Shown here in pieces: positions 10,619-63,589 of a DNA stretch of 64,000 nucleotides. The number at the start of each line of letters is the position of its first letter. The first letter of the stretch is position 1. Under the pieces are notes generated by a model that was not told where the DNA came from, searched no databases, and saw nothing but the letters and a program-made list of their open reading frames with translations. Source of the stretch: Owenia fusiformis (Eukaryota > Annelida > Polychaeta > Sabellida > Oweniidae). Position numbers and translations under genes: made by a program. The stretch is from positions 5,535,525 through 5,599,524 of the forward strand of contig CAIIXF020000004.1 of the NCBI GenBank assembly GCA_903813345.2, in the 5' to 3' direction.

Positions 10619-13600
10619 GTAAGAATTTCCTTTTATTTATTTAAAGATAATGATAATATTTGCAAGTGGAAGAAGGCTGAGCTCAGGGGAAAGCTAAACC
10701 CACTATTTGGATGTCCTTTGTACATCTTATATATATTGCTCATTGCTTATATTTAATGCAATATTTGTGTCCATGGCAGTTCAAATGATTAAATGAAAAA
10801 TGTGATGCTGACCTACTTTCATTCAAAATGGCCGCTCAAACAGCTTCATTTGGCATTACAGACGTAGGAGAAATAGCCATATCATATGATGTCATATTTA
10901 TGAGGACATATTAAGCATTATTCCAAAACCCTGTAGATTTCTTGATTTTTCCTTCATTTAGTTATATTAAGAATAAAGATTAAGAAATTCAACCAATCGC
11001 CTGTTTCATTTTGGAGATTAGTCCCGCTTAACACTACCCTGCGTGCAGAGTCTAGTTAAACTACAAGACGAAGCTCTCTTTTAAGAAGTGAAGTCAAACG
11101 AATGCAAAGGGTACTTAACACAGATTAACCTCTTGTGGCCTAAATTAAACTTCTTATGCAGAGGGTCATGCAGGCCTAAGTGAACGCAATGAATGTCTAG
11201 ACAATCTAGTACAATACGGCACTACAATGAAGTTTAGTAATTTGTTTTATCTTTTATCGATTGTCTACCATAATATATATTGTTATCATGCTGTAACGAG
11301 GGAGGTCATATCCCAGTTACCAGAAACGGAATTTAGTTCAACAATTTGATATATTTAAAGGGGCAACAAGGACTGTAGAGAAAAGATTCGAAAATTTTTA
11401 CTTTTTCTGAGCTATCGGGGCAACATTTGGCTTAACATCTTCTTTGACATACCTATTTTCTTAAAATGTATGGATAAACTATCAATTTCAGCATTAAGAA
11501 TTGTAAATTCAGTTCAAAGCTTCTATAAAGGGAGTCCCACTTATAGAGTTTTAAGATTCACCACGTTTCAATAGGAATATCAGCTGAAATAATGTCATCC
11601 AGGGGGTTTCTTTCAAGAACAAAAATATATGTTAGTCTTGAATGAAATATCCAAACTTAAATATATTTTGACACTGGACCGTTGAATGGCCCCTCTGCAC
11701 TAATTGTTGCACCTTTGAGTAAAAAGTTGTTTAATAAGGAAAACGACCGAAGGATAGCACGAGTGGAATTATATTTGATATTTGAATTTCTTTGACTATA
11801 TGTAACTAGAATCAAACTGAACAGCACTGGACTCAAAAATGCAATTTTGGACCACCCTGTATACAACGAGGACATATTAATATGATTTGCCAAGTGGCAA
11901 ATTGTCCGGAAATAAGTTATGCGGTAAGACGGATACGTAGTTACAAAATAATCCCTAGCCCATAGTAATTTCTACCAATATTTAATACTGCAAACAATGC
12001 AGTTCAGACCCATATAAGTGCATGCATGAGTTTTATTCGATGGAAACCATTATTTAGACGTGTTTTCTCATTTTTTTAGGTTCAGCCTGGTAGTAATCGA
12101 ATCGATAGACAGACTGGCGACCAACACGGTAATAGGTGAGTATGGCGTATATTGCAGTCCAACATATTGATAGCCCATATATTTTGGTGCTTGGAATCCG
12201 ACGTCTGTGGTAGGCGGATGGCGTCTGTAACAATTTAATATGCTTTAGTATGCATATGCAGGTAGTGACATTTTGTCATGTTAATATCTAATAAACAATT
12301 CTGTCTCCTAGCTTTTCCCGTCAGGATTAATTATTTTCGTGGATTTACATGGATAACAATCCTTTCTTAATATCCGGTTATGTACTGAGAGGTTTTGATG
12401 AAATCCGACGTTCACAGTTCCTGTTCAAAACGCTTTTTGGCAAAATACTGAAGCTAGATTAGAACGAGGTGAATAAATATATGCTCCCACAGATAACACC
12501 AATATTATATATCCTGCTGTTTCCCTTAAATCTTACTGAAATTATGAGATAAGAGCGATAATGTTTGCATCCTTTTTTAAAAAAAATTGGAGCTTTAGAT
12601 GCGCAAAGTGCGACAACTTTTGCACTAATTGTGCGCATGCCGTCAAAAAAACGCAACCCAAAGAAATTGCTATATCTTAAAAAATACTAGTTTAATTATG
12701 TTCATTTTTTCAGGAAAGAAAGAAGAGACTGTGTATGTATAGCTCCTGTAGTTGGTTAGTTGTAAAACATGATGCATTGGACACCTGCTCAAAAGACAGT
12801 TGTACTGGGAAAATACGAAAAACCGAGTCAGGGCTGACTGCAACCGCAAAAAAACCAAATAACTTCCTAGCCATAGTATTTTGGCTCTTCAAATTTGGCA
12901 CAAATCATCTTCATTAGTAGATAGAAAACTGAGGGCATCAGAACGCCACGGGCCGCCACGGGCCCGGGGCTTTCAAAATCTCTGAAGATGAGCAGGAGAT
13001 ATTGATGAGCAGGAGATAAATTAATTGAATGGGGATTAGGAGATAAATTAATTGGATGGGGCTTTCATCTTAAATGTGTAAAAATGATAGATAAGATGCG
13101 CATGACATCATTGTTATCTTAAATGGGTGAGAGATAAGATGCGCATGACATCATTGTTATCTTAAAAATCAAACATCAATTACTACATCAAATAACTGAG
13201 AAAAAATTAATGTACAATATTGTTTAATTTATTTGCATTTATTTTACAAACAAAAGTACCACATAATCTAATTAATCCTTATTATCACTAGCAGAATCAT
13301 TGGTTTCATCAGATTCATTATCACTAGATTCACTAGCTTCGTCATTGTCACTAGAGTCAGTATACGATTCATCTGAAACATTTGCATCATCATAAAGTCC
13401 TACATTAATAATGTCTTCTGTCATATAGTTGTGGTGTAACATGGTCTTCTTAAAAGCATCTTCAAACGGTATGCCTGTACTCATTAATTGCTGGATGTCT
13501 ACCATGATTTCTTTATGTGTTGGACTACATTGTAAATCTAGTAAATCTTCAACTAAATATTTGTAGTATGTCTTAAACGTTTCTCTTATTTTGGGTAGGA

Positions 13601-16600
13601 ATTTTTGATTCGCCATATATCTTCTATCATACTCAGAATTCCCCTTCTGTTTGTCTATATATTTTGCCTCTTGTTCTTCAATTTGATCTTTAAATTTATT
13701 AATAGCTTTATCCTTTAGCCGTATATACACAGGGTTTTCCTGAAACCCTTCAGTGCATAGCTTCTTCATTGGAGGGTCGTCTATATCCTCATTCAATGGA
13801 CAGTTTTGGATATGATTCTGTAGATCCATTCTTGATATTAACATGACACCACAATAGTCACAATGACATATTTCTTTCATGTTGTAATTTTTGTTGTCAG
13901 AATGTATAACGTTGCTGGGGATAGTATCTTTTATACTCGCAGTGAACTTATATGGAGGTTTCATTATTGAAGTATCATACTGTGACATCTCTTTAAATGG
14001 GTTTTCAATAGCATTCAAATCATATGGTAGTGCTATGTCATTGGATTGTACTGTCTTAGTAAATGGTTCTCCCTTTAGATGACTACTATCATGCTCATTC
14101 ATTGTTTGATGAGTCTTATCATAACACAGTCTTAAATGCTCTGGGGTTTCTTGCTTTAGATCAATCAGTAAATGCCCATATGGTTTTAGAGTAGCTGCAT
14201 TATAAGCATCTAAGAGTTTGTGACTGTTCCCAGGATACATCTGCTGAGAAAGTACTCTTACTTGGTTTTGATCTCTTGGATTCTTGTACAATACAATGTA
14301 ATGTGTATTCAAGCTGATGGTTCGATTCTCCCTTCCATGATGGAAGATATTCTGCAGTAAACAGATTACACTCAGGTTTCTGTGATGACTCCCTTTAGTA
14401 AACAAATCAGAAATCTTCCTGTCTTTGGTAGCATCTGACATCAAGTCATCAACAATCATTAAATTACGCACTCTAGGATTTAAGAAATCTGGACTGTTTA
14501 ATTCATCTGGAATTCCCATCATAAATTCTATTCCAGGATGTATGTTCTTAATCTCTATGTAAAGTGGTTGCCATTGTCCAAAACACCAGATAATACGCTG
14601 TGGAGGGGGTTGGATGCGTTGCTCTACATTTTCCAAAAGTTGCTTGACAAAGGTAGTTTTCCCACAGCCTGTGGGACCAGTGACCAACATGGTAAAGGGG
14701 TGATGCAACACTTTGTCCATACCTACATGTATGTCTTCTTTACCTAGTGCAGAGTGCATGCCTTTGTGTCTCGCTAAACTTGAAGCATGTCTAAATTCTT
14801 TACCGCAATGACAGTAATACATGTTACTGCCTCAAAGACTGATAACAAAATGGATGCAATTCATAATTTCGTTCTGTTATGTATATGTGTTCAAAGGCAT
14901 GTTCAATAATGCTAATTTAAATGTATGCTAACAGATGCTAATGCTAATAGATGCTAATGGTAATGCTAAGTAATGCTAACAGATGCTAATGCTAACAGAT
15001 ACTAATGCTAATGCTAACACGTGCTAACAGATGCTAATGCTAATAGATGCTAATGGTAATGCTAACAGATGCTAATGCTAATGCTAACAGATACTAATGC
15101 TAATGCTAACAGATGCTAATGCTAATATATGCTAATGGTAATGCTAAGTAATGCTAACAGATACTAACATATGCTAATGATGATGCTAACAGATGCTAAT
15201 GGTAATGCTAACAGATGCTAATGGTAATGCTAACAGATGCTAATGGTAATGCTAACAGATGCTAATGCTAATGCTAACAGATACTAATGCTAATGCTAAC
15301 AGATGCTAATGCTAATATATGCTAATGGTAATGCTAAGTAATGCTAACAGATACTAACATATGCTAATGATGATGCTAACAGATGCTAATGGTAATGCTA
15401 ACAGATGCTAATGGTAATGCTAACAGATGCTAATGCTAATGCTAACAGATGCTTACATATGCTAATGATGATGCTAACAGATGCTAATGGTAATGCTAAC
15501 AGATGCTAATGCTAATGCTAACAGATGCTAACAGATACTAATGCTAATGCTAACAGATGCTAACATATGCTAATGATGATGCTAACAGATGCTAATGGTA
15601 ATGCTAACAGATACTAATGCTAATGCTAACAGATGCTAACATATGCTAATGATGATGCTAACAGATGCTAATGGTAATGCTAACAGATGCTAATGATAAT
15701 GCTAACATATGCTAATGATAATGCTAACAGATGCTAATGAGGTAATGCTAACTAATGTTCATACATATTCAAACCATTTGTAAATGAACAACATTTGAAA
15801 AAAAAACAACATTTGAAACTTTAGTTATTTATTTTTATTCATATCGTTCAGTATTATATACAAATAACTTTAATCGTCCATCCTTGCTGGGATACCAGGT
15901 GGTTTGTATAAGAATGTCCGTTTCTTTCTTGTATTCGAAGTGTTTTGTTTTTTCTGTTTAAATGGATGTTTCTTCTTTATATTTACAGAGTTTTGTTGTT
16001 TCTCTTTAGATGGTCTATACTCTTCATATTTCATATCTTCATGTTGACGTTTCAATTGTGCCTTTGCTCTGTCGACAACTGCAGTCATGGGTGAAATGAT
16101 TTGTACTGGTTTAGTATCTTCTTTAATGTCATCTATGCCTATCCACCCTCTTCCTGTTTGAGATACTTTCAATCTATTCTGTCTCCCAGCTCGAATAAGT
16201 TTCAACCAGTGTTCTGGGTTGTCTACATATGGTACTAGTTTCATGGTTTTTAGTTGATGTGTATATATCAAGTATGAGGATTGAAATGATAAAGATTTGA
16301 ATATTTCACTCAATATATATTGTCAAATGGCATCAATATCAACTTCTTATCAACATCTGATGTCGTGATATTCTTAGAAACTGATGTCGTGAATTAATGT
16401 AGTTCTTGTTGTTATTGACCATTCCAGATTAGAAAGTTGAAAGATTATTTATATTCTTAAGATACATTCAATAGATTTTTCTGTCAAACTTCTGGAACCT
16501 TCCAGAATAATGACTCATCGCTATAATCTGTTTTTGAAAAAGGGGATTAACACTGTAAACAAAAGATGTTCTAGAATATGAAGGATTAACATTGTGATGA

Positions 16601-19600
16601 CACAATTAAATGTCAACATTCAATTATTACATTAAAAGACCATTATTGTTGAAATCAAGTATAGTAAGATCAAATGGTCAATTCAATATAGGACTTAAAT
16701 AAATAAACCTTTTCAACGGTCAATTCAATATAGGACTTAAATAAATAAACCTTTTCATCTGTACACATATTTAATCCAAAATCCAGTTCTTTTTCCTTTT
16801 ATGCGAACAGTATTTGTTTGACCAGCTCAATAGGATTATTGATTCTTTTCAATGTTGGGTTAATATTGAAAGTAGAATTGTAAACACTGTTAATGGATTA
16901 TACCAAATTTAAAATAATATTAAAAGGATTTATTTTGTACTTTACTATTCAGTCCAAGAAATACATTTCTCACCCATTTAAGATAACAATGATGTCATGC
17001 GCATCTTATCTCTCACCCATTTAAGATAACAATGATGTCATGCGCATCTTATCTATCATTTTTACACATTTAAGATGAAAGCCCCATCCAATTAATTTAT
17101 CTCCTAATCCCCATTCAATTAATTTATCTCCTGCTCATCAATATCTCCTGCTCATCTTCAGAGATTTTGAAAGCCCCGGGCCCGTGGCGGCCCGTGGCGT
17201 TCTGATGCCCTCAGTTTTCTATCTACTTTCATTCACTGTATGGTAAATCTGTAAAGTGAAATTAAAATCACTTCAGGGACTTTACAGTTATGGTCGAAAT
17301 GCTTTCAAATCTCAGTCAAACGCCCTGGTTCCGGCAGACTTCAGAAGGCATTTTGACCATGACTGTAAAGTCCCTGAAGTGATTTTGATGAAACTCCACA
17401 AATTCACCACACATTGAATGAGGATAATTTGTGCCAAATCTGAAGTGCCAAAACACTATGGTTAAAAAGTTGTTAGGTTATATTGCTGTGGCAGTCATCT
17501 CTGACTGCGTTTTTCGTATTTTCCTAGAACAACTGTCTTTTTGGCAGGTGTCCAATGCATCATGTTTTACAACTTACTAACAACAGGGGCTATACATACA
17601 CAATATCTTCTTTCTTTTCCTGAAAAAATGAACATAATTGGATAAGTATTTTCCAATATATAGTGATTTTCCATTCACGTTTTTCGTATTTTCCATGTTC
17701 GACTGCCTTTTGGGCAGGTGTACAAGACATCATATTTTACAACTAACTATCAACAGGAGCTGTACATACACAGTCTCTTCTTTCTTTCCTGAAAATATGA
17801 AAACAATTGGATAAATATTTTCCAAGATATAGCGATTTCTTTGGGTTGCGTTGTTTTTTTAACACCCTGTATTAAATGTCAAGTTTAATTACCAAATGTA
17901 CATTGACCACTTATTATTAAGAATTCTTGAAGCCCATTGTTCTCTTACTATGACGTCATTATGTCCATGGTTACAGCAAGTTTATGAATTCTTATCTGGA
18001 CGAAGTGTCTGTCAATGATCTCGGTTATTCGGAAAATAGATAAGTAGATATTCAATTAATCGTGTGCGTCAATATGATAGTCAGCGTCTGCTGTGGATCA
18101 ATTAGCTACCGACTGAAGTGCTACGTAAATAGTATACTCCCGACAGCATATCGTGTTGCGATAGTTCATTCCAGAGCCTTTAATTGTTCTAGTGTTTTTT
18201 GAATATGTAATTTACCCCAAAGTATTCCGTGCGATTCCAAATAAAGAGGTTGCCATGCCGGTGATCCATGATGAATGAAATCCTTTAGTGGGTGGATGAT
18301 GCGACAGCAGTTAAATTTGAACTACGACAACCATACGATGACCGTATTTTCCCAAACTTGAGATAAAGACAGCATAAAATATAGGGATAAGCAGTTCGAT
18401 GTAGCCTAGATTTTCTATATCGATTTTGTGAAGCTACGACCGCCGTACGTCCACCGACCGTAGAGCAAATATGGCTAGGGCTTACGTTTGGAAACCCACT
18501 ATTTTAAGTATTCTATCATTGGTTGGCTGATCTACTGTGTATTAGAATAAAAAAAACACACGCATCTAAAATAAGAAGTTTCATTCACCCTGCGCAGTAA
18601 AATAACCGCTTTCAAAAGAGGCCTGATTAATAAAACGTATAAAAGAGTATATGTTACAAGGTCGAACCGTGCCATTGCCGACTGAAAAACAAATTCGTGA
18701 CCGTTAACGTGATTCTTATTCGATCGGCATAATCCACCTTTACGTCGTTTAAGATTCGTGAGTTCAGATAAGGACATGCGGGATCTCATGCGATTGGTTT
18801 ATAATGAAGTCAATGTCAGCGCATTGTCTATTATTGAATAACCGATCATTAATCATTAATTAAAAATAAGGAACTAGGTTAAATTAAGATTTTACTGCAT
18901 TTTTATCAAAGTATAGATTTCTAATTCACTCACTAACAAAGGCCTATCCGTTCTATGTCCATTGACAGATTTTCATTTTCGAAGCGAATAATATCATACT
19001 TGACTTAGGGCGAACTAATAGTCATTTATATTAATCAACGACCAAGGTAGAAAAAGAGGACCAGCTTAAACGTTAACTTTTGTTCCTCAAAACTGAAATT
19101 AGAGGTCTCTAGTTATGCCTGGGTCACATACGCTCCGATCCATCGGCCGGCGCCCGGCTGAATGAGTGTTTTGTTCAATATTGTAGGCTTATTCAATTTT
19201 GAACAAAATACTCAATCGGCCGTTCGCCGTCGTGAAAATCGGAGCAAATGTGACCAAGGCATTAATAGGCGATAGAGAATTACACCAACTGTTGGGGGGC
19301 AGATCCCGGGGGCATATCCCCTATATGATTATTTTAAACGTTAACTAACTTTAATTGTTGAAATGAAGTTCAAAGGACGTAATACTGTATACCTCATTTA
19401 GTCTTATTTGCCTCGCCTATTGATTTTGCCTCAACTAATTTAAAGGGGTATTCTTTGCCAGACCATCTCTCTCCTAATATGGTAGCTATAACCATATACA
19501 TACTTTGCAAGTTTATCAAAAAACAGAAAAATGTTTTGAAATGGTCAATATTGATCACTAAAAAATGTAGTGCTCAATAGACTAGATGCGAGTAGAAATA

Positions 19601-49600: not shown

Positions 49601-52600
49601 ATGAACATAAATGATTAATTTTTGTATATTTCAATATTCTCATTGCTGTCTACTATATTATGTTTACACAGCCCAAACCACAACCGAAGTGTATACACAT
49701 GTACTCTTAAACAAACATAAACCCCTGAGTTATTCTGGATAGTTGCATTTGCACCTTGAGTAATATAAATAGAAATAACAGTTAAAACAGGAATGGCAGA
49801 TATAAACGTCAATAGATTAAAGCACTTAACTTATTAATCTCGTATCTCTGAGAATTGTTGTCCTTAAGGTGGGACACGTGGGAAGACCTTAAGAGAGTAC
49901 TAGTGGAAAGGTTTTAATATGGAACTATTGGGAAGACTCGAAGTTTGGAAAAGTGGAAAGCTTTTAGGGTAGCACTAGTGGAATGATTTTACGATAGGAT
50001 CATCGAGAAATAGACCTTATAATTGATACGATCTTTGGATGAGAACATAGGGAAGACAATGTCTGGCGTCTGGAACATTAGGACGATTTGTAACATCTAG
50101 ATTAATTTTCACGTCAAGTAAATCATGAACGTTTTGAATTCCATTAACAGGTCGCGAAGGAATTGCGACATTCAAAAATTGTGACATTGAAAATAAACTT
50201 CTCCTGTTTATGATTCTACCTTTAATGCAATGCAAATGTAGTGTATTTCTGTGGTCGGTGATGTTAGGAATGAAAATCATAATTATGGATGTTTGGATTA
50301 AGAATATTCACCACATTTACAAGCTCTTGTTTATAGTTTGTAGTAATATGTATAATCTATAATATACTGGTACGGTATCTTGTGTTTTACATGTAAATGT
50401 GTGCTTTCAAACCATTATGTTTAATAAATCAACGTTCTCACATATTTCAGTCGATCTATATATATTTTTTTCTATTCTAGGCACCATTTATTTCAGAAAT
50501 CATGCATAAATTTTCCACCATTGCCATGGCAAAATCGCCTAACAATTTCCACTGTAAAAATGTTATATTATACATTTATGTTTATTTGATCCCCATTTAT
50601 ACTCATGGTTTATAGCGATTTTGATATTTCATTTAGATGGGATCTTTCATATGTTTTATCATGGTATTAAATCTCAATGTGCCCATTCAGATACACTCTC
50701 CGTCGGTGTTAATAGCATATAAAAAATATATGTTTGAATTTGAATTTATGTTGCCATCAAAGTGTTAATGTGTTAATATTAGTCTTAGTCTGGGCTGTTT
50801 TGTTATATCTATATATTATACATATGGAATCCGTAATAAACCTTGCGTTGGTTCCCATCGTATAATCTTCAAAAAGGCCAGAGGTCTTCTCCATCACTCT
50901 ATTATTCCCCACAAAACGACTTTTTGTATACGTGATTTATTTTGTTTGAATGCTACAAAAACCTGAACAACTATTGAGCATTCTTCATGTCATCGATGAA
51001 TAATATATGAAAAATTATGAAAAATTTAAATATACATATGTATAGTCCTTGATAAATGAATAAACACAAAGAGCACGCGCGTCTCGAACTCGCAACCTCG
51101 TGGTTACGGCGTTTTAAAGAGGTTAAGTTACACGTTTAAGAGAATCTGTACGTGAGCGTGTAATATTTCGACCCCCGATGATTCTACACGTTCACATACA
51201 CGTTTTCTTAAAACTGTATGTTAACCTCCCCGTTGCTTCTTGGTAAGACTATATTCATAGATTAATCCAATTATTTTTTAAAGATATTGAACTTTTCACA
51301 ATTTATCAATGTTCCATCTAGGTTGCTGCTATCGTGTGGTGCAGATCCGACTCTATCAACATACAGTGGTAGGACTCCTCAGAAGATCGCTAAAACAAAG
51401 AAAATGAAAGATTTCCTGAAAGGATATTTTGCAGACTTGAATGGATGTGATAAATCTGACAAGTCAATCCATTGGCATTTTAAGTATACAAAGACAGGTA
51501 TTGTGCTCAGTCTTTATACTAATAATGTGTCATTTATCAATGGTATTAAATATAGAAAAACTTCTTTTATTTCTATACCCGCATTTCAAGTCAGGACGAC
51601 AGGAATTGTGTTCAGTCTATATTATAATGTAACCTGTATGAGAAGTATTAAACATACAATGTGTAGAACAACTTAATTTATTTCTTTACCACTGGAACGA
51701 TGGAATCAGGTGTACATGTCTTGCAAATCGCAAATGCTTCTCATTGTAGATAAACACCTTTCTGGTTTTGATATATTTGATGATGTACCAAGTGATCCAG
51801 AGGAGGCTGAGAACCCATTTGAGGAAGAGGGAGGAATGTTGTTTGATTTCTTTGACAAACCTCACATCCCATCATATTCTTTGAAACTTCCAGATCAGGG
51901 GTGAGTAGTATAAACAGTTAATGAATAAATTAAAAGTTGTTATATTTTACAGAGTATGTACGACTTGTCATTATATGTTTTTCATTTTTTACTACGCATT
52001 TGCATTGGATTGCATTAGACACTGTTTTTTCATGTTGGATTATGGTTTGGGATAGTTGGAATCTGGTTTTCTTATTACTGGTGTACACTTCAGTGTTTTG
52101 TTTTTTTTCTTGCTGGGTTTTGTAACAACTTTTTTGCACTTGTGCGTACATATTGCTATTGGTCCGCACTTCAGTTTTGTGTGAAAATGATTAAGACGAT
52201 TAAGACAATTTCATAGAATTTCAAACAAACGTCAAATAATCATCGATAAATATAAAGTAACAATTATTCATATATCCGGAATCATATCTACAATTCTCAG
52301 AATTCACTCTAGTTTTAAATCGAAATCTAACATTTTTATCGTGCTGTGTATCCATATTGATCGATTTTGTTTGTTTATTCCAGACTTGGAAATTATATTC
52401 TACTTGAGGAACTGATCAAACAGCTTCAATTGACCAATGAGAGCTTTAGGAAGACATACCCGGATGTAAGCATATACACCATGTCATTGGACGAGATGAG
52501 CCAACGAACAAAACATTCCCCAATTATGACAAAGCAGTTGAAAGATATACCCAAACAAAAGTTCAATTTGGAATTGGTAAGGTTAGACGCTCGAGTGAAT

Positions 52601-55075
52601 GATATATTAGGAGTTACAACTGAGAGTGTGTATGAACTGAAACCGTATGTTCCACCATTGAAGGTTGAAATCAAACCTGAAGTAAAATCTGAAGTTTTCA
52701 ATTCAGATGAGCATGGAACCCAAGAAGAATCAAATAATGTCCCTGAGAAGGTTGCTATCAAGACAGAAGTCTCAGAAGATGGCTATGCATCAGACAGAAC
52801 CGAAATATACGAGAATGACTTATTAGTTGCAAATGGAGGCCAACTTGGATCTTCTGGAAGAGAATGTCAAAAAGAAAAACAAAATGGCGTCCATGATTCT
52901 GATTATGATGTTTCCGAGCAAGAAATATCTCTGGACAGTGACAGTGATCATGATGGTGAACAAAGCTCGAATAAAGTGAACAAGAGCTCAGACTCGCTAA
53001 TTTTGGACAGTGAAACAGGCGTCCTTCTACCAGATGAACAACCTATTGAACTTTCCTCGAGTTCACAAGTATATGGAAAGGAAACTGATCCTAATAACCA
53101 TATACATCACAGAAGCAATAAACCTATGTTGCCAGGCAACGTACGTCAGACTGGCGACCATAAAAACATTGTTGTTAGTGAATATGAATTTAAGGACACT
53201 TCTAAAAAGAATGGAACCAATAACTTATGTGATACATCCAGCAAAAGATTTGGGTTTGATTACACTAATTCCCCTCATCCAAGAACTCATAAAAACACAA
53301 ACGTCCATGATTCACAGTTACCCCAATCACACAAATACGGCAATGCGGAAGCTCTACCCCATTTACCCCAATCTCATGGAATCAGCAATGTAAGCAAATC
53401 AGATGTTTCATCTAAATATAACATTCCAATGACTCAACAATCAGTGTCAAACAATATGACTGAAGTAGTAAAACATCCTTCAAAACATCAAGATGAACCA
53501 TTAGACTTTACAAAAACAAATAGCAAAATATCTGAGAAAACTAAAAATATAGATAGGCCTCCTATAGATCTACATCAACCAGGAATACAGAGTGGGATAC
53601 CATTTGGTAATACGAGTAGTATAACCACAGGAACTCGTAACACCAATCAAGATATGAATGTGACAGGATATATGAATGCTTTTGTAGCATCTACTGCCCA
53701 AAGATCCAGCGCCAATGCATCATTGTATCACAATCAAAACCAACAAGTTGGTAACCATAGTAACCAGATTCAACAACACCAGGAACGTTATAAGCAATCT
53801 GAACCATTGCAAAGTCAGTCCCATCATCTTGGTGGTCTCTCGGCTCATGCTCATGCCTTTCCAAAGGAGGATGTCCCTCGCTCTGTTAAAATGATGATGA
53901 AGCAGTATCAGCATTATAAAGATCACCAACAGACTTTGCGAACTAATGACTATCTGAAACAACACCTACAGAACAAAGAACGCCAGGCTCAATTAACTGA
54001 AGCCCATGAAGCAAAACGTAACACCGAGTTACAGAAACAGAAAGAACAATACATGGATAGGACAAAACAGGTGCTAGCATTACAGAGACAGAAGGAAATT
54101 CTACAAAGGAGAGTACATCATACTGAGATGGTAAAACAGGAAAGCTTGGCTACTGAGAGGAAACTTCAGGCTGAGTTTGCGAGAAACACAAGCATCCATC
54201 ATGCAGCTTCGATAGCGTCTCATCAGAGCCCTGTGTCGTACCATTCAAACTTACCAGTGGAGTCTCATCATTCACAACTGGCGTCCATGGCGTCCAGGCG
54301 CCAGTCACCCATGGGGCATTCACATCCCTCTTCACCCCTAGGATCGTATGGAAAACCCTATCCCCATTCACCTATGGGTTCTATGCATCAAGGGACACTA
54401 CGACCTGGTCACTCCCAGTCGCCATTGGGTTCTCTACGACCAAAGTCTCCCATAGTACCCGCCCATGCACAGTCCACGCTGGGTTCCATACACGCAATGT
54501 CTCCTATGGGCCCAGCTCATTCACAGTCCCCACTGGATTCAATTCATAGACATTCCCCAATGGGATCTTCATTTGTACCGTCCCCACTTACCTCACATCA
54601 TAGACATTCACCTATGAGTGCACTATCATCTCATACTGCTCCAGTCCGATGGCCTCATGGAAATCAAGCTTTAGGAATGCAGAATTCAACTCCCGATCGC
54701 TCTCCACACGTGTTACCACGCATGCCAACTCTCTTACACGTGCCATCTCCAGATCTAACTCTTGCTGGAGGGAGTATGCATGAACTACATGCCCAAGCAG
54801 GACGTGATTCGGGACCACAAACTATGCCTAAACTTGAACTCTCACATCTGACTCAAGGTCCTTATCGTGCTACCCCTACCTCTCAAAGTCCATTTACCCC
54901 ACAATATGGCAGCCATAGAGGCTCACCATCGGGGGCTCATAGATACCCTGAAGGTCAAGCTGGTAGTCAAGGCAACAGTAGCTATGCTTCATATGGATCC
55001 ATGGGGCGTCCAACGTATCATCAAGGACATACGCCCGAAAGTGATACCCAGGGCAAAAGATATACTTATCTCTAG
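10579..55075 (+). CDS. BCOR: BCOR/BCORL1-like Polycomb corepressor, 13-exon gene model (5' end not found)
   Basis: Nuclear corepressor of the non-canonical PRC1.1 complex. In the known family the PUFD domain binds PCGF1 and, with KDM2B, directs H2A ubiquitylation to CpG islands; vertebrate BCOR also binds BCL6. Seen here: thirteen exons joined by GT/AG introns with fully compatible phases give one open frame of 9834 nt after the first split base (about 3277 residues plus stop). Order: disordered Ser/Pro/His-rich region with two PLDLS motifs, conserved SAGFV...REQRWLQ and [10 protein letters not shown] blocks, AT-hook, basic and helical segments, ankyrin repeats, acidic linker, PUFD, then a long C-terminal extension. 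The [10 protein letters not shown] block, ankyrin repeats and PUFD line up with vertebrate BCOR from memory of the family. No initiator exon was recognised; a Met in the third exon (22394) or the two Mets opening the large exon could also serve. BCOR and BCORL1 cannot be separated, since the gene may predate their duplication. Confidence 0.9.
10619..12079 (+). other. intron between model exons 1 and 2
   Basis: 1.46 kb. Contains the 83-bp MITE copy at 11035-11113 and an isolated transposon-end-like CCACCCTGTATA near 11850. No other structure seen. Confidence 0.4.
11035..11113 (+). mobile_element. 83-bp-family MITE, copy 2
   Basis: TACCCTGCG...GCAAAGGGTA, nearly identical to 1218-1300, with CTTAACAC duplicated on both sides (11027-11034 and 11114-11121). 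Confidence 0.7.
12080..12135 (+). CDS. BCOR: BCOR homolog, putative exon 2 of model (56 nt)
   Basis: Lies between a polypyrimidine-rich TTTTTTTAG acceptor and a strong GTGAGT donor. Reads [18 protein letters not shown] and ends with two bases of an Arg codon completed by the first base at 22384. The strong splice sites and phase agreement on both sides support it. No domain is recognised. Confidence 0.5.
12910..12915 (+). repeat. 6-bp target-site duplication (left), TTCATT
   Basis: Direct copy of 17228-17233, immediately outside the two 251-bp inverted repeats. Six bases is the duplication length of Polinton/Maverick integrases. Confidence 0.85.
12916..13166 (+). repeat. left terminal inverted repeat (251 bp)
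   Basis: Contains a GC-rich start (CCACGGGCCGCCACGGGCCC), two GATGAGCAGGAGATA-type repeats and two copies of a 29-bp motif (13090-13118, 13133-13161) starting GATAAGATGCGCATG and ending CATTGTTATC, 43 bp apart. The motif's GATAA/TTATC ends are mutually inverted, so it may be a protein-binding iteron. Confidence 0.9.
13272..14822 (-). CDS. packaging-type (A32/FtsK-HerA-like) ATPase with zinc-finger motifs, 516 aa
   Basis: Probable DNA-packaging ATPase of a virus-like transposon. Residues 1-23 resemble a C2H2 finger ([20 protein letters not shown]), but the cysteines are one residue apart instead of two to four, so it is non-canonical. The ATPase core is about 40-232: Walker A GPTGCGKT (49-56), Walker B LMIVDD (121-126), a GSHHRN segment (144-149) and the LLQNIFHHG motif (155-163). 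A second C2HC finger sits at 321-341 (C321, C324, H337, C341). The tail (485-516) is highly acidic and serine-rich. No frameshift or internal stop. The ATPase domain is standard for Polinton/NCLDV packaging enzymes; flanking fingers and the acidic tail are additions. Same strand as the small gene at 15870. The function is inferred from motifs. Confidence 0.85.
   Translation of the reverse strand: MYYCHCGKEFRHASSLARHKGMHSALGKEDIHVGMDKVLHHPFTMLVTGPTGCGKTTFVKQLLENVEQRIQPPPQRIIWCFGQWQPLYIEIKNIHPGIEFMMGIPDELNSPDFLNPRVRNLMIVDDLMSDATKDRKISDLFTKGSHHRNLSVICLLQNIFHHGRENRTISLNTHYIVLYKNPRDQNQVRVLSQQMYPGNSHKLLDAYNAATLKPYGHLLIDLKQETPEHLRLCYDKTHQTMNEHDSSHLKGEPFTKTVQSNDIALPYDLNAIENPFKEMSQYDTSIMKPPYKFTASIKDTIPSNVIHSDNKNYNMKEICHCDYCGVMLISRMDLQNHIQNCPLNEDIDDPPMKKLCTEGFQENPVYIRLKDKAINKFKDQIEEQEAKYIDKQKGNSEYDRRYMANQKFLPKIRETFKTYYKYLVEDLLDLQCSPTHKEIMVDIQQLMSTGIPFEDAFKKTMLHHNYMTEDIINVGLYDDANVSDESYTDSSDNDEASESSDNESDETNDSASDNKD
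14895..15760. repeat. AT-rich satellite inside the Polinton-like element
   Basis: About 860 bp of ATGCTAACAG, ATGCTAATGG and ATACTAATG units (6-18 bp), with higher-order repetition: the block at about 15061-15185 recurs at 15251-15370. It fills the gap between the element's two genes. No coding potential. Confidence 0.9.
15870..16313 (-). CDS. small basic protein of the Polinton-like element (up to 147 aa)
   Basis: Unrecognised product. The first Met gives 147 aa. The Met at residue 24 (16242-16244), beginning [20 protein letters not shown], is the more natural start (124 aa), because the first 23 residues look like translated leader. A middle motif [21 protein letters not shown] is followed by a very Lys/Arg-rich tail ([15 protein letters not shown]) ending [10 protein letters not shown]. 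Size, charge and pairing with a packaging ATPase suggest a DNA-condensing or virion-core protein, but this is inference. The region 16320-16976 to its right has no ORF; it holds a ~40-bp direct repeat (GGTCAATTCAATATAGGACT) at about 16677-16757. Confidence 0.65.
   Translation of the reverse strand: MSEIFKSLSFQSSYLIYTHQLKTMKLVPYVDNPEHWLKLIRAGRQNRLKVSQTGRGWIGIDDIKEDTKPVQIISPMTAVVDRAKAQLKRQHEDMKYEEYRPSKEKQQNSVNIKKKHPFKQKKQNTSNTRKKRTFLYKPPGIPARMDD
16977..17227 (-). repeat. right terminal inverted repeat (251 bp)
   Basis: Exact inverse of 12916-13166 by eye, including the two 29-bp motifs at 16982-17010 and 17025-17053. The right TTCATT duplication follows at 17228-17233. Confidence 0.9.
17234..19110. 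other. intronic sequence right of the Polinton-like element
   Basis: 17234-17870 is the right arm of the split foldback. 17880-19110 has no supported gene, RNA or recognised repeat, only short open frames. Confidence 0.5.
19119..19261. mobile_element. ~143-bp palindromic MITE, copy 1
   Basis: Ends TGCCTGGGTCACAT and ATGTGACCAAGGCA (imperfect inverted repeats); inner arms CTCCGATC/GATCGGAG-like and TTTTGTTCAA/TTGAACAAAA. TTA occurs on both sides. A close copy lies at 45989-46131, inside another intron of the gene. Confidence 0.75.
19800..20160 (+). repeat. CTATACTTTC repeat block, opposite orientation to the 69-bp satellite
   Basis: Multiple TTCTATACTTTCGATACTTT units, followed by two copies of GTAAAACAATATGTGACGTC (about 20072 and 20139). 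This is the inverse of the core of the satellite starting at 20345, so the two blocks face each other as a large inverted repeat. Confidence 0.75.
20345..21415 (-). repeat. 69-bp tandem satellite
   Basis: About 14 units. The regular centre (20580-21120) has a 69-bp period: CGAAAGTATAGAAAGTATAG, AAACTATAGACATTTGATTT, GTCGAAGACAGTTATGGGGA, then AAAGCAGAT. Edge units are diverged and shorter. Because 69 is a multiple of three and the unit lacks stops in some frames, open frames arise on both strands; they are not genes. Confidence 0.92.
21449..21618 (+). repeat. dispersed ~170-bp repeat, copy 1
   Basis: Shares AATTTGCATAACTATTAG, ATAAGGGTTATATGAAAATT and GACCCGAACGAGCCACCTGG with 30501-30669. 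Unclassified. Confidence 0.75.
21621..21956. mobile_element. ~336-bp MITE with ~70-bp inverted ends
   Basis: The left end (ATTCCAGTAGGCTGCCATCT, GGAAGTGATGTCATCGACTC) is matched inverted at the right (GAGTCGATGACATCACTTCC, AAGATGGCAGCTTACTGGGA). No ORF. Confidence 0.75.
22384..22579 (+). CDS. BCOR: BCOR homolog, exon 3 of model (196 nt)
   Basis: Enters after TTTATAG in phase 2 and leaves in phase 0 at GAG|GTGGGT, matching the start of the large exon at 36930. It encodes about 66 polar residues with an imperfect repeat around GDTPH (three copies, plus a related REPSH). An in-frame Met follows RFES at 22394 and is a possible alternative start codon. Disordered, with no named domain. The neighbouring introns are 10.2 and 14.4 kb and full of mobile elements. 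Confidence 0.72.
24018..24205. mobile_element. 188-bp MITE, CAGGCCCGTAGCCAGG family
   Basis: CAGGCCCGTAGCCAGG at the left and CTGGCTACGGGCCTG at the right are inverted ends, with G- and C-run inner arms (GGGGTTCGGG...CGAACCCCCC). Confidence 0.72.
26293..26455. mobile_element. ~163-bp palindromic MITE, copy 1
   Basis: GTAGCATTCGCGAATTCAAC and its inexact inverse (GTTGGATTCGCGATTGCTAC) end the element; GACGATTTAAC pairs with GTTAAACCGTC inside. A diverged copy lies at about 36088-36229. Confidence 0.7.
26650..26890 (-). repeat. tRNA-like (SINE-type) fragment
   Basis: CCCGGGTTCGATTCCCGG at about 26697-26714 is a perfect T-arm with a pol III B-box (GGTTCGATTCC). No D-arm or acceptor-stem partner could be paired convincingly, so this is more likely a SINE piece than a working tRNA gene. 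Confidence 0.4.
26997..27576. mobile_element. 580-bp mariner/Tc1-like MITE
   Basis: The ends CAGGTTGGGCCAATAAAACGC and GCGTTTTTTTTTTGGCCCACCCTG are imperfect inverted repeats flanked by TA (26995-26996, 27577-27578). No transposase ORF. A similar degraded end lies near 57810. Confidence 0.72.
28565..28765. repeat. cluster of direct and inverted GGTCAACAGT repeats
   Basis: AGTGGTCAACAGTA occurs twice in tandem; its inverse (TTGTTGACC) and further GGTCAACAGT and GTATAC copies follow, giving several potential hairpins. Unclassified. Confidence 0.5.
29085..29290. repeat. short tandem of ~75-bp units with CCAATCAGA
   Basis: GTTGACCGCTAATTGACCAATCAGA and GTTGACCGCTAATCAACCAATCAGA are two units, each followed by GAGTATTT and a GGTACTAACAATA end; a third partial unit precedes them. 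Confidence 0.6.
29376..29565. mobile_element. ~190-bp foldback
   Basis: GCAAGGAGGATTGGAAGCCAG pairs with CTGGGAGCCAATCCTCCTTGC (imperfect), and CGATATTCT with AGAATATCG. Opposing open frames of 129 and 100 codons come from this palindrome and its flanks. Confidence 0.68.
30501..30669 (+). repeat. dispersed ~170-bp repeat, copy 2
   Basis: About 85-90% like 21449-21618 by eye, ending shortly after GGTAACTACCTACT. Confidence 0.72.
30806..30890 (-). mobile_element. 83-bp-family MITE, copy 3 (inverted, diverged)
   Basis: Inverse orientation of 1218-1300: TACCTTGCCCTTTGCG at the left and CTCTGCGCACAGGGTA at the right. Several substitutions suggest an older copy. Confidence 0.65.
32820..33260 (+). 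repeat. ~18-22-bp satellite of TTAACGAATGGTACG units
   Basis: About 20 diverged units alternating ATTAACGAATGGTACGTTG and ATTAACGGATGGTATAATC. Confidence 0.85.
33800..33930 (+). repeat. tRNA-derived SINE, copy 1
   Basis: GTAACCACGAGGTTGCGAGTTCGAGACG has a tRNA-like T-arm with B-box-type GAGTTCGAGAC; TTGGCGATTGGG about 40 bp upstream resembles an A-box. The core GTAACC...TTATTCATTTA recurs inverted at 51049-51108, showing it is a dispersed SINE, not a tRNA gene. Confidence 0.7.
35393..36005 (+). repeat. 49-bp tandem satellite, ~12.5 units
   Basis: Unit: GAAGTATTACACACAGCACC, AAAAACATGGCACGTCCTAA, TTATCATTT. Variants are mainly CACACAG/CACACGG and CACGTCC/CACATCC. One unit (near 35900) has an AAAATA insertion. 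An (AT)n microsatellite follows at about 36033. Confidence 0.92.
36088..36229. mobile_element. ~163-bp palindromic MITE, diverged copy 2
   Basis: Shares ATTTAAATATGAATGGTATAG, GCCGGCAATTGAATTTGCGAATG and the palindromic layout with 26293-26455; the left end is eroded. Confidence 0.55.
36930..42263 (+). CDS. BCOR: BCOR homolog, giant central exon (5334 nt, 1778 codons)
   Basis: Acceptor TGCTTTCAG, donor CAG|GTTCGT; both ends are phase 0. The first 120 residues are a His/Ser/Pro heptad-like repeat around VSPRHRE (about 13 imperfect units). Two PLDLS motifs at 37359-37373 and 37461-37475 match the PxDLS class bound by CtBP; the second is followed by a basic, NLS-like KTRKR. The middle is disordered and Ser/Thr-rich. 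Near the C-terminus (about 41900-42117) come SPRSP repeats, then a basic stretch and the segment RNSAGFV...[15 protein letters not shown], which corresponds to a conserved block of vertebrate BCOR. One very long coding exon is typical of BCOR genes. Long open frames on the reverse strand here are shadows of this low-complexity exon. Confidence 0.93.
42264..44011 (+). other. 1.75-kb intron of the BCOR homolog
   Basis: Contains one open frame of 165 codons on the minus strand (43485-43982, starting [16 protein letters not shown]). I do not recognise it; it could be a fragment of a mobile-element gene or chance. No repeats seen otherwise. Confidence 0.5.
44012..44203 (+). CDS. BCOR: BCOR homolog, exon with [10 protein letters not shown] block and AT-hook
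   Basis: 192 nt, phase 0 at both ends (acceptor ATCTTCAG, donor AAG|GTACCA). It opens with [10 protein letters not shown], nearly identical to the RAMMRFSELE block of vertebrate BCOR. An acidic stretch follows, then PRKRGRPF at 44162-44185, whose RGRP core is an AT-hook (minor-groove DNA contact). Vertebrate BCOR has a short extra segment between REQRALQ and RAMM; no matching mini-exon was seen in 42264-44011. Confidence 0.9.
44588..44735 (+). repeat. three-copy ~48-bp tandem repeat in an intron
   Basis: Units of AATGATGCACCATGGGGCCT followed by ACCTTAAAGGCCTC or a variant, ending 28 bp before the acceptor of the 44764 exon. Confidence 0.7.
44764..44818 (+). CDS. BCOR: BCOR homolog, small basic exon (55 nt)
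   Basis: Acceptor TTTTTTCCAG, donor AAAG|GTGAAA. Reads [18 protein letters not shown], starts in phase 0 and ends one base into a codon. The strong polypyrimidine tract and phase match on both sides support it. No domain; probably a linker after the AT-hook. Confidence 0.75.
45238..45306 (+). CDS. BCOR: BCOR homolog, small linker exon (69 nt)
   Basis: Acceptor TTGTTCTAG, donor ACAG|GTATGT. Phase 1 at both ends, so it can be skipped without a frameshift and may be a cassette exon. Encodes a polar segment starting [14 protein letters not shown]. Supported by splice signals and phase continuity only. Confidence 0.7.
45519..45886 (+). CDS. BCOR: BCOR homolog, basic/helical exon upstream of the ankyrin repeats
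   Basis: Acceptor TAAAACAG, donor ACACAG|GTTAGT; enters phase 1 and leaves phase 0. It starts with a KRRR cluster (candidate nuclear localisation signal). A charged, probably helical stretch ([20 protein letters not shown]) and SP-rich linkers follow. The segment [20 protein letters not shown] resembles the region around the ELTGLHPKKQRHLL motif of vertebrate BCOR. Confidence 0.83.
45989..46131. mobile_element. ~143-bp palindromic MITE, copy 2
   Basis: TGCCTGGGTCACAT...ATGTGACCAAGGCA, same family as 19119-19261, within the intron between exons 45519-45886 and 46284-46577. Confidence 0.75.
46284..46577 (+). CDS. BCOR: BCOR homolog, exon with start of ankyrin repeat 1
   Basis: Phase 0 at both ends; acceptor AATATTCAG, donor GAG|GTAACG. 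The first half is a polar repeat around GNLGEHSN. The second half ends with [15 protein letters not shown], the first helix of the first ankyrin repeat, matching the GETLLQRAARLGYE of vertebrate BCOR and cut by an intron at the same residue as I recall it. The repeat continues in the exon at 46904. Confidence 0.92.
46904..47115 (+). CDS. BCOR: BCOR homolog, ankyrin repeats 1-3
   Basis: Acceptor TTTTTATAG, donor GTGAG|GTAAGA, leaving two bases of an Arg codon. Encodes the end of ankyrin repeat 1 (DVTLYCLKT...), all of repeat 2 ([15 protein letters not shown]...AYGANVN) and most of repeat 3 ([19 protein letters not shown]). The TPLHE and HDAVENDxIEIVR signatures are diagnostic for the BCOR ankyrin domain. 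A 4.2 kb intron follows, carrying a LINE remnant and a 25-bp tandem repeat. Confidence 0.95.
47680..48450 (+). pseudogene. LINE reverse-transcriptase C-terminal fragment with an in-frame stop
   Basis: Frame with 47824-48450: [20 protein letters not shown] matches the 'LGVHRF.P..A..GDMGW' segment after the RT domain of many LINEs. A TGA at about 47800-47802 interrupts it. Then [19 protein letters not shown] and a terminal knuckle [19 protein letters not shown] (C-x2-C...H...C). The palm with the catalytic Asp pair is absent. A different LINE family from the copy at 7755. Confidence 0.78.
47680..48732 (+). mobile_element. 5'-truncated, inactivated LINE
   Basis: A reverse-transcriptase ORF fragment followed by ~280 bp of 3' sequence and an (AAAT)n tail (48711-48732), a typical LINE 3' end. 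No target duplication was identified. Confidence 0.75.
49064..49313 (+). repeat. 25-bp tandem repeat, exactly ten copies
   Basis: Unit GAGGGGAGTGTACATGAATG plus ACATC, ten perfect-length copies; units 1 and 3 have CATAAATG instead of CATGAATG. Open frames on the minus strand are repeat translations ([20 protein letters not shown]), not genes. Confidence 0.95.
51049..51108 (-). repeat. tRNA-derived SINE, copy 2 (fragment)
   Basis: Inverse of the core of 33800-33930: GTAACCACGAGGTTGCGAG, TTCGAGACGCGCGTGCTC, TTTGTGTTTATTCATTTA read on the minus strand. Confidence 0.68.
51322..51497 (+). CDS. BCOR: BCOR homolog, end of the ankyrin domain
   Basis: Acceptor TTCCATCTAG in the phase needed to complete the Arg codon of the previous exon; donor ACAG|GTATTG leaves one base. 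Reads [21 protein letters not shown], equivalent to the end of repeat 3 and the partial fourth repeat of vertebrate BCOR (LLLSYGADPTL). A helix ending [12 protein letters not shown] and a short linker follow. Confidence 0.94.
51750..51900 (+). CDS. BCOR: BCOR homolog, acidic ankyrin-PUFD linker
   Basis: Acceptor CATTGTAG, donor CAGGG|GTGAGT; phases match both neighbours. Encodes an acidic, aromatic-rich linker ([17 protein letters not shown], then [18 protein letters not shown]). It matches in position and character the FEFEFSETPLLPCYN segment between ankyrin repeats and PUFD in vertebrate BCOR. Confidence 0.9.
52384..55075 (+). CDS. BCOR: BCOR homolog, terminal exon: PUFD domain plus ~800-residue extension
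   Basis: Acceptor TTTATTCCAG completes a Gly codon; stop TAG at 55073-55075. The first ~86 residues (52384-52642, [14 protein letters not shown]...[11 protein letters not shown]) are the PUFD, the PCGF1-binding ubiquitin-like-fold discriminator that ends vertebrate BCOR. Here the frame stays open for about 810 more residues. The extension has three psi-K-x-E SUMO-type sites ([13 protein letters not shown]97, K101 and K126 of the exon), an acidic serine patch, a CtBP-motif-like PLDFT (~53498-53512), a Gln/His-rich region, a charged predicted coiled coil (~53880-54190, [15 protein letters not shown] onward) and repeated SPMG/SPLGS units (~54270-54620). No intron signal is needed to read through. 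Confidence 0.92.
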
Positions 55076-58000: not shown

Positions 58001-58507
58001 TTGTCACATGATTTTTTCAATCCTTTCCAGATTTATTTTTAGAACGAAAAAACGTGAATTTATTTATAAAACCTTTAGAGGTCACACGTACATCTTTTAT
58101 TAAGCGATAATTCAAAACAATGTATAGCACTCATCTTCACGTGCCCAATCAAAAATTAAGAAAATTGGTGCATAAATAAGCGAGAAATGAAGTCATCCAT
58201 GCATGAAAATGGTTTAGAGAAAAATGTATTTCAAAATTTCAGTTGTCATTGAATCCAATGGTATAATGATACTATATTTGAAAAATAATATATCCTTTTA
58301 ACCTGGTTAGAAACTGCTTTATTTTTGAAGTTCGACATATTAAGAAAAGATTGACGGAGAAAAAAATAATTTCATTTTTTTTCAGACGTTGCCACCTGAG
58401 TGATGTCACGATAAGGTCAGGTTGCAAAATATTTTTAATATGCTATAATATTGAGTGTACTATCCTTACTTCTTTGTTTATTTCGTGGTATGAAGAAAGT
58501 AGTTCTA
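55076..58507. other. 3' flank of the BCOR homolog, probable 3' UTR then intergenic
   Basis: No gene is supported here. Possible polyadenylation signals (AATAAA) occur at 55210-55215, 55820-55825 and 56195-56200; which one is used cannot be told. Open frames in the stretch are short and unlike known proteins. A degraded transposon end resembling the element at 26997 (CAGGGTTGGCC) lies near 57810. Confidence 0.5.
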
Positions 58508-58717
58508 CGAAGGGTGATCAATAAGTAATGGACGCTTTTTTACATAGATACTTTTTATAGACCAATCCCTTTGATTTTCCTACCAGTGATACATCATTCA
58601 ATTATCTATCAATTCTGAAGATTTGAAGACAAAATATATAATACATATTGATATATCCTTATTTCCGTGAAGGAGGTACAGTTACCCCGGGACCGACATT
58701 TACGTCACATATTCAGT
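58508..58717 (+). repeat. left inverted repeat of the composite element
   Basis: Runs from CGAAGGGTGATC to GACCGACATTTACGTCACAT. Matches 63380-63587 inverted, with scattered substitutions and a few small gaps, so the element is older than the Polinton-like one. Confidence 0.82.
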
Positions 58718-58828
58718 TTTTAGCCAGTTTGGTAAATTTCAGTTAGATTTGAACATTTTATATGCAACAAGTGTTGTGTTGTTGAAATTTTTTTGCTGAC
58801 TGGTAACACATAAACAGAAAGTATTGTA

Positions 58829-59239
58829 ATGTCAGAGTGTTGTATGGAAGGGGTTTGCAGTCAATTTGAGAAAGCATTGTGGAAGAAAGTGGTGGTGAGA
58901 GAAGGGAACACCCTACTTCATATGGACAATGCACCTACCCACAGATCTCAAAATGTTCAGAAAACAATATCCCTGGACCTCAAAATTGAGCCCTTGGCCA
59001 ATGCACCATATTGTCCAGATCTGCTCACATGTGACTTGTTTATTTCTATACTACTTACTTCTGTAGAGAAAGGACGCAGGTTTATTGACATTGATGGAAT
59101 AAAACAACCCGTGCAACTGCATCTTGCTACCATGTCAGAGAATGGATTCAGCCTTGTCTCACAATCTTTAGTTAAAGACACAGAACCAAGACCCTGGGTC
59201 CTGTTATCCAATCAAAAAGTAGTTTTCATTAACCAATAG
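58829..59239 (+). pseudogene. mariner transposase, C-terminal fragment (136 aa)
   Basis: Contains the HMDNAPTHRS motif (second catalytic Asp) and YCPDLLTCDLF (third Asp region) of mariner DD34D transposases, though with 35 residues between them. A C-terminal GRRFIDIDGIKQPVQLHLAT segment also fits the family. The N-terminal DNA-binding half and first catalytic Asp are missing, so it is dead. Its orientation agrees with the surrounding mariner-like repeats. Confidence 0.8.
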
Positions 59240-59500
59240 AAATTCACACCGATTGAGCCAATCACAGCCTTCAAAACAAGATTTTTAAAAATGGCCACCA
59301 AAATAGTAAACAATAACATAGCAGTAAAATTTTGTACTCACATATATATGCATTGGTTTCTCATTTAATAATCCACTAAACAATATTATAAGAGCATATA
59401 ATCCAAATAGTAGTTACTATAGTTAATGTGTATACTATTATATTTAATTAATCCGAATAAGAATATTTCATTGTGTAAGTCTAGCTGAACTTATATCCAT

Positions 59501-63379: not shown

Positions 63380-63587
63380 CAGAATATGTGACGTAAATGT
63401 CGGTCCCGGGGTACCCGTACCTCCTTCACGGAAATAAGGATATATCAACATGTAATACATATATTGCTTCAAATCTTCAGAGTTGATAGATAATTGAATG
63501 ATGTATCTCTGGTAAGAAAATCGAAGGGATTGGTCCATAAAAAGCATCTGTGTAAAAAAGCGTCCATTACTTATTGATCACCCCTTG
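63380..63587 (-). repeat. right inverted repeat of the composite element
   Basis: Inverse of 58508-58717; it ends GATCACCCCTTG next to TA. Confidence 0.82.
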
Positions 63588-63589
63588 TA

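Follow-up and report, generated by a model that had tools for sequence, protein, structure and literature searches.

Polintons (Mavericks, polintoviruses) are recognized by 5'-AG ends, terminal inverted repeats (TIRs) of hundreds of bp, a 6-bp target site duplication (TSD) and an A32/FtsK-type packaging ATPase, and they encode a protein-primed DNA polymerase (PolB), an RVE integrase (INT), capsid proteins and an adenain-type protease. Non-autonomous Polintons are recorded in Repbase. In bacteria, satellites of the PICI/SaPI and P4 types are small integrated elements that take the capsids of a helper and bring their own packaging-specificity function. Symmetric defective genomes are known from adenoviruses. 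Among the relatives of Polintons in eukaryotes, virophages and transpovirons are known dependent agents. According to the accessible text of one source, virophages retain a capsid module and a replication gene, and transpovirons retain a replication protein after loss of the structural module (PMC11071308). Here, a two-gene element of the annelid Owenia fusiformis is described. It is located at positions 12916-17227 of a 64,000-nucleotide stretch (assembly GCA_903813345.2, contig CAIIXF020000004.1, positions 5,535,525 to 5,599,524 of the forward strand), hereafter called the window. The element is 4312 bp long and bounded by TIRs, and both its genes, one for a packaging ATPase and one for a small basic protein designated SM, lie on the minus strand. 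On balance, we consider it probable, by no means certain, that it represents a satellite lineage of Polinton-type elements with recent activity.

The element shares with Polintons the 5'-AG ends, the long TIR, the 6-bp TSD and the A32-type ATPase. It differs from them in its small size (4.3 kb) and in the lack of PolB, integrase, capsid and protease genes: no such open reading frame (ORF) is present in the ORF list for 12916-17227. Its genes do not make it a Polinton; rather, it is a related element that forms a lineage of its own and lacks the genes for an independent life. PICI/SaPI and P4-type satellites depend on a tailed-phage terminase in bacteria, whereas the window element has an A32-type ATPase in an animal genome, and no helper-control gene is seen in it. 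Compared with virophages and transpovirons, as the accessible text describes them, gene retention is reversed. The parts of the locus are the following:

12910-12915, no strand: target site duplication TTCATT, left copy (sequence)
12916-13166, plus strand: TIR on the ATPase side, the 'right end' in SM-to-ATPase orientation (repeat comparison)
13272-14822, minus strand: packaging ATPase of the A32/HerA-FtsK type, 516 amino acids (aa) (ORF, Pfam, model)
14900-15760 (approximate), no strand: intergenic tandem array rich in TGCTAA/TTAGCA (hexamer count)
15870-16244, minus strand: small basic protein SM, 124 aa (ORF from ATG)
16538-17227, minus strand: 'left end', 690 bp, made up of the TIR and some 440 bp more; putative cis signal in packaging and/or replication
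16673-16756, no strand: two tandem 42-nt repeats within the left end (repeat comparison)
16977-17227, minus strand: TIR on the SM side (repeat comparison)
17228-17233, no strand: target site duplication TTCATT, right copy (sequence)

The two 251-nt TIRs are complementary at 251 of 251 positions (100%). The termini read 5'-AGTAGATAG...CTATCTACT-3', i.e. 5'-AG...CT-3', and TTCATT is found on both flanks. In the reading direction SM comes first, followed by the tandem array and the ATPase; 81 of the hexamers are present in the element. Beyond the two genes, no ORF of at least 70 aa is contained in an ORF list with a minimum of 50 aa, which holds two short ORFs of 63 and 69 aa antisense to the ATPase gene. 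A previous sequence-only reading had reported repeats without a difference, AG ends, the 6-bp duplication, two genes only and the loss of all replication, integration and capsid genes, and each of these observations has been borne out. It did not mention the tandem array.

The ATPase matches Pfam Pox_A32 with 38.7 bits (curated cut-off 22.8). In an AlphaFold2 model (predicted template modelling score, pTM, 0.51) it is composed of a C2H2 finger, the ATPase domain (about residues 40-235), a disordered stretch, a second finger region and a helical C-terminal part. The best match to this model in the PDB is the DNA-packaging ATPase B204 of STIV (E 1e-5), and HerA ranks fifth. As RecA/RAD51-type ATPases match the model about equally well, the fold alone does not settle the family. 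The Pfam match, STIV B204 and the tree position described below place the protein within the A32/Polinton packaging ATPases, so that the doubt raised with the first description on this point falls away. With 516 aa, two finger regions and an extra helical domain the protein is unusually long; the ATPases of two Polinton-type contigs, L041 and L042, have 205-207 aa. A protein search yielded 346 relatives at E<=0.01, and among the 120 listed the organisms named are Mytilus edulis, Pinctada imbricata and a Solemya velum symbiont record. One Pinctada gene model (P0058) fuses the long ATPase to an RVE integrase. A PDB sequence search with the ATPase and a PHROGs search gave no significant match, and IMG/VR yielded no relatives in scans with the window ATPase alone, a capsid alignment or an ATPase alignment.

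SM is 124 aa long when translated from the ATG; the ORF list extends it from a TTG (15870-16313). It contains 29 lysine and arginine against 14 aspartate and glutamate residues. The profile search proposed for both proteins succeeded for the ATPase; SM did not reach the curated cut-off of any family in Pfam or PHROGs. It is 98% identical to one annotated Owenia protein, and relatives beyond Owenia were not found in the protein search.

The TIR was used to search the Owenia genome, and 46 matches were obtained from 40 of 79 candidates scored. Twenty stretches were fetched from these matches, and the ends of 18 were examined. Seventeen of the 18 other copies have the same ends and a perfect 6-bp duplication, which is different in every case; therefore, the structure in the window is not due to chance. 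The exception is L036, in which the TIR match starts at position 29. This variant end type is shared by the two-gene copies L039, L040 and L050 (L039 and L050 at one end only). Three kinds of elements have these ends in common: two-gene elements of about 4 kb, elements of about 8 kb and palindromic elements. Two-gene copies like that in the window are L021, L025, L031, L036 and L037, and L039, L040 and L050 also have both genes. A genome search with the ATPase returned 83 genes from 83 of 253 candidates scored. Nine of them are full-length copies of the window type (98-100% identity); in each, as judged by position, SM is located 498-1050 bp upstream in the same orientation. Since part of the candidates was scored, nine is a lower bound. 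The search with the TIR that had been suggested did lead to further copies, and a single-copy origin is refuted by at least nine two-gene copies.

Six elements with the same TIR (L022, L024, L026, L029, L032 and L034) are 7964-8537 bp long. All six contain, in the same order and open, the ORFs for an ATPase, an integrase, a 138-aa protein (P138), SM, a 448-aa protein (major capsid protein, MCP) and a 148-aa protein (protease, PRO). Pfam assigns A32, RVE plus chromodomain and adenovirus endoprotease in L026. The 448-aa protein has 15 relatives in the protein search; a PDB sequence search with it gave no significant match. It is probably the capsid protein, an assignment made via the homologue P0122 (37% identical), whose model (pTM 0.82) matches the double jelly-roll capsid proteins of Sputnik, mavirus and PBCV-1 with a best E of 8e-15. 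Seven capsid relatives (P0124, P0126, P0127, P0130, P0131, P0134 and P0135) are found on contigs of 5-9 kb and are possibly free relatives of the 8-kb elements. F54H12.2 of C. elegans is presumably kin to the capsid protein as well; the literature search gave no paper on it. The 4-kb elements measure 4013-4455 bp (mean 4221, five copies), about half the mean of 8209 bp of the six 8-kb elements, and an effect of capsid capacity is possible.

The polymerase that a Polinton would require was sought with that of L042, a Polinton contig in the record of an Escarpia (tubeworm) symbiont. In L042, a PolB gene truncated by the end of the contig (PF03175, 36.8 bits) is followed, in this order, by genes for an ATPase, two small proteins, INT (RVE and a chromodomain), a small protein, a penton-like protein, a basic protein, MCP and PRO. 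The 8-kb elements keep its order for ATPase, INT, penton-like protein, basic protein, MCP and PRO. P138 resembles both ends of the L042 penton-like protein (34% and 27%, E about 1e-6 or better). SM occupies the slot between the penton-like and the capsid gene, which is filled in L042 by a basic protein of 152 aa; no sequence kinship of the latter with SM was shown. At E<=1, neither the window element nor any one of the six 8-kb elements gave a match to the L042 polymerase. Long elements with the same TIR that carry integrase and capsid genes exist as anticipated, and the expected polymerase did not appear in them. Because of their length of about 8 kb and the absence of a PolB match, they are not the autonomous Polintons of 15-20 kb that the sequence-only reading had in mind. 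L041, L042 and L043 are Polinton-type contigs in genome records of tubeworm and mussel symbionts and probably represent host contamination.

The two kinds of elements are old relatives with young ends. The gene order is SM-ATPase in the 4-kb and ATPase-INT-P138-SM-MCP-PRO in the 8-kb elements, where SM is fourth. Between the ATPases of the window and L026, 220 of 482 aligned residues are identical, and within the ATPase domain 133 of 200; in the parts tested, the divergence at silent sites is either undefined because of saturation or above 2. In SM, the first 42 codons are close (38 of 42 residues, dS 0.28), and the remainder is saturated. The left end (690 bp) is 96-97% identical to that of L022, L024, L026, L032 and L034 and 90.5% identical to that of L029. 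At the right end, about 250 bp are 92-96% identical to all six 8-kb elements. As the non-coding left end is that similar in five of six elements despite the old split of the ATPases, the ends must have been exchanged or renewed. The plain reading would be an exchange of the ends, perhaps also of the start of SM, between two old lineages. A simple internal deletion of an 8-kb element is rejected because of the reversed gene order and the divergence of the ATPase to silent-site saturation. A direct parent, i.e. a longer element with an ATPase nearly identical to that of the window, was not found among the 83 scored candidates. Long relatives with the same genes in the same order had been named as the finding that would speak for a deletion; the 8-kb order is different, and the divergence is old.

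All ATPase genes (8/8) and all SM genes (13/13) compared have intact reading frames. SM is clearly under purifying selection: between 12 copies, 12 silent and 7 changing substitutions were counted where a fraction of 0.762 changing ones was expected (P=0.0003, dN/dS 0.15; L025 SM, one codon shorter, was left out, and the tests treat variants as independent). For the ATPase (8 copies), 17 silent and 28 changing substitutions were found (0.743 expected changing, P=0.05, dN/dS 0.40). The 8-kb copies are very young, younger than the 4-kb copies: the protease gene is identical in all six, and the capsid gene has a mean dS of 0.0025. Based on very few changes, their dN/dS amounts to about 0.37 for capsid (6 copies) and integrase (5 copies) and to 0.59 for P138.

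Seven palindromic elements (L023, L027, L028, L030, L033, L035 and L038) use the shared ends, and five of them carry SM in both arms. In an ungapped measurement the arms of six span 1458-2883 bp and are exact or nearly so; for L033 the judgement is based on an alignment. L023 is built from the 8-kb left end, while the building block in L030 and L038 is the SM half of the 4-kb element. In L027, L028 and L033, 1153 bp of the 8-kb left end (99.1-99.3% identical to L022) are followed by the 4-kb SM region. As these three join both kinds, the 8-kb and the 4-kb elements recombine, and the two must meet in the same cells. All three have one junction in common, so the palindromes are not independent events. 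Two additional inverted SM pairs (C9:20776857 and C2:22060009) are probably palindromes, judged by their positions. The TGCTAA array was considered as a mark of palindrome centres and discarded, since the hexamer count fits one of the seven only. In six of the seven, left-end sequence inside the TIR (8-kb positions 264-690) is located on both sides. In this doubling of one particular end they resemble the symmetric defective genomes and incomplete particles of adenoviruses. The Owenia palindromes differ in that they are integrated with target duplications and are known from DNA sequence alone, and one of them, L035, deviates from the pattern. In the text available from two sources, the packaging domain of adenovirus is found at a distance of 220-400 bp from the left end, the end that is preferred in incomplete particles (PMC5033970, PMC12090768). 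The left end of the Owenia elements is a putative packaging or replication signal.

ATPase and SM also occur together in other arrangements. A genome search with SM yielded 113 places (132 of 132 candidates scored), which were paired with the ATPases by position. Besides the nine pairs of the window type, 17 ATPases have SM on the opposite strand at most 1 kb downstream, with one more at 1255 bp; 17 have it on the same strand 95-162 bp downstream; nine have it, as in the 8-kb elements, about 2.0-2.1 kb downstream on the same strand; and one has it 3.8 kb downstream on the opposite strand. Twenty-nine ATPases have no SM within 6 kb, and 59 SM places have no ATPase partner. Two sites of the opposite-strand type were read. 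L054 is a complete two-gene element of 5547 bp with convergent genes, a TIR of 253/253 and the TSD GCACGC. Its TIR found no match among the other loci compared. L055 contains the same gene pair, and no TIR was found there. In a tree of ATPase domains (37 rows), the window ATPase adjoins those of Owenia elements with integrase and capsid genes: it is sister to a group comprising the ATPases of the 8-kb elements and L056 together with those of L054 and L055 (98/89). Because L054 and L055 cluster with the 8-kb elements and L056 (99/93), the two satellite families do not form sister groups in the ATPase tree. The SM proteins of both families nonetheless share the C-terminal motif Y[KR]PPGIPA, which is absent from SM of L026. 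Two-gene satellites may have two origins, or one ancient pair may have existed from which longer elements were rebuilt. The 17 sites with ATPase and SM 95-162 bp apart may be a third two-gene family. At one place (G000:C10:22417099-22422596), two pairs of this third arrangement are inverted back to back, perhaps a palindrome with both genes twice. L056 (5334-9998) belongs to another Owenia family with an ATPase 72% identical to that of the 8-kb elements; its order MCP-PRO-INT-ATPase is a circular shift of the 8-kb order, and its integrase is split into two ORFs.

How could such an element live? It would retain DNA ends that the integrase and the replication machinery of a larger element recognize, plus its own ATPase and a core-like SM. 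Polymerase would be supplied in trans for replication. Subsequently, ATPase and SM would recognize the left end and drive the DNA of the element into capsids built from the capsid, penton-like and protease genes of an 8-kb element. The 8-kb integrase would then act at the shared TIR and generate the 6-bp duplication; the duplication is observed, the enzyme is a proposal. TIR and TSD length are the same in the window element and its integrase-bearing 8-kb partner, and the 8-kb elements may well be the helpers for integrase and capsid. A small genome and a private packaging set could be an advantage in the competition for capsids.

In the window lineage, own conserved genes, several copies and an own lineage are found, as expected of a satellite, although conservation of the ATPase between copies is marginal. 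The sequence-only reading had proposed a satellite or parasite of a larger virus-like element. Copies, ends and lineage support this pattern, and the reading held up in the tests run on it; the satellite relation itself we infer from the missing genes. Several points weigh against it. The source of the polymerase is its weakest link, and the only hint is a faint PolB-like piece in L057. The constraint on the ATPase between copies is marginal. A packaging or core-like role of SM would rest on gene position and charge. The 8-kb elements already encode ATPase and SM, so that the satellite's own set is explained by a hypothesis only, the competition for capsids. Finally, in the palindrome L035 the outer 363 bp match the 8-kb right end (85%), and left-end sequence is located about 1.4 kb inside each arm.

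L057 encodes an ATPase of 501 aa and an integrase 69% identical to that of the 8-kb elements. One of the ORFs upstream of these two genes scores 17.4 bits against PF03175, below the cut-off of 25.8, and the L042 polymerase matches the PolB-like piece with E 1.5e-7 over 68 residues. L057 was considered as a PolB Polinton, and this assignment is weakened, as Pfam and the direct comparison leave no more than the faint piece. It might hint at a degraded or divergent PolB family. Upstream of the piece (L057:9001-9999) there is an ORF with an Endonuclease_7 domain (24.2 bits, cut-off 23.6).

Four other explanations have to be weighed, all of them improbable in our view. The element could be an ordinary non-autonomous deletion derivative, in which an internal deletion left the ends and two genes by chance and without a role. 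Polintons with missing genes are on record, and in the accessible part of one survey the ATPase was identifiable in 83% and the protease in 74% of the elements (PMC4028283); the weak constraint on the ATPase would fit, too. However, the gene order is reversed relative to the 8-kb elements, both genes are open in every copy compared despite silent-site saturation, SM is clearly constrained, and the same pair recurs in another family with another TIR. Moreover, in the same part of that survey ATPase and protease were missing, too, from nine elements that had no capsid gene (PMC4028283), the opposite pattern. No long element with adjacent SM and ATPase and an ATPase above about 95% identity was found among the scored candidates, which yielded only the nine copies and a 94% fragment. 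We regard this explanation as unlikely. Just as unlikely is a divided genome, in which the 8-kb and 4-kb sets and a polymerase-bearing part would belong to one virus-like agent and complement one another. Its appeal is that the 8-kb elements show no PolB, the 4-kb elements lack capsid and integrase, and the ends are shared and recombine. But the 4-kb set supplies no missing function, as both kinds encode ATPase and SM, and no polymerase element with these ends was found.

A little less probable still is a host-serving defence element, kept because it reduces the yield of the larger element as a virophage does. Palindromic, interference-prone derivatives exist, seven examined and two more inferred from positions, and the accessible text of one source reports endogenous virophages that mitigate a giant virus (PMC10945749). 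In contrast, the copies examined differ in their 6-bp duplication, as expected of recent selfish insertions. Least probable appears a self-sufficient minimal element, in which ATPase or SM have a non-packaging function and host enzymes provide copying and movement. The unusual length of the ATPase, with its two finger regions and extra helical domain, leaves room for an added function, and no polymerase helper has been established. On the other hand, integrase genes are found together with the same long ATPase in the 8-kb elements, L056, L057 and the Pinctada gene model, and ends and a TSD of this type would be expected from an RVE integrase, a gene that the window element does not have. The satellite remains the preferred reading.

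The element is inserted into an older inverted-repeat structure (12645-12915 and 17417-17857, arms 85-86% complementary), and a further palindrome is located beside it at 17229-17421. A second TIR-bounded transposon of the window (58506-63589, arms 93% complementary) has a match to Pfam Mutator (PF20700) in its ORF at 61035-62672. At 52367-55075, some 35 kb away from the element, a host ORF with a PUFD (BCORL-PCGF1-binding) domain probably encodes a BCOR-type corepressor.

A literature search that covered few subscription papers revealed, in the text available, neither a satellite of Polintons with retained packaging genes nor an animal Polinton without polymerase, and palindromic Polintons did not appear in it either. 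According to the accessible text of one source, particles of animal Polintons have not been observed so far, and their formation is an open question (PMC8097293). The putative satellite from Owenia, whose whole coding capacity would serve packaging, whose SM at least is under selection and which recombines with capsid-bearing relatives, would be indirect evidence of packaging. The left end, conserved and doubled in six of the seven palindromes examined, suggests where a packaging or replication signal may be located. Tentatively, and with less confidence than in the satellite itself, a layered society of Polinton-type elements in animal genomes can be envisaged: PolB Polintons, polymerase-less 8-kb elements as the source of capsid and integrase, two-gene packaging satellites of more than one origin and palindromic interferers. 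The satellites would be the eukaryotic counterpart of packaging-redirecting phage satellites, with the 690-bp left end as packaging signal. As several layers are present in one genome in many near-identical copies, these questions can be addressed in a single animal. If such a layered society exists, animal Polintons would still go through a replicating, packaging, virus-like phase.

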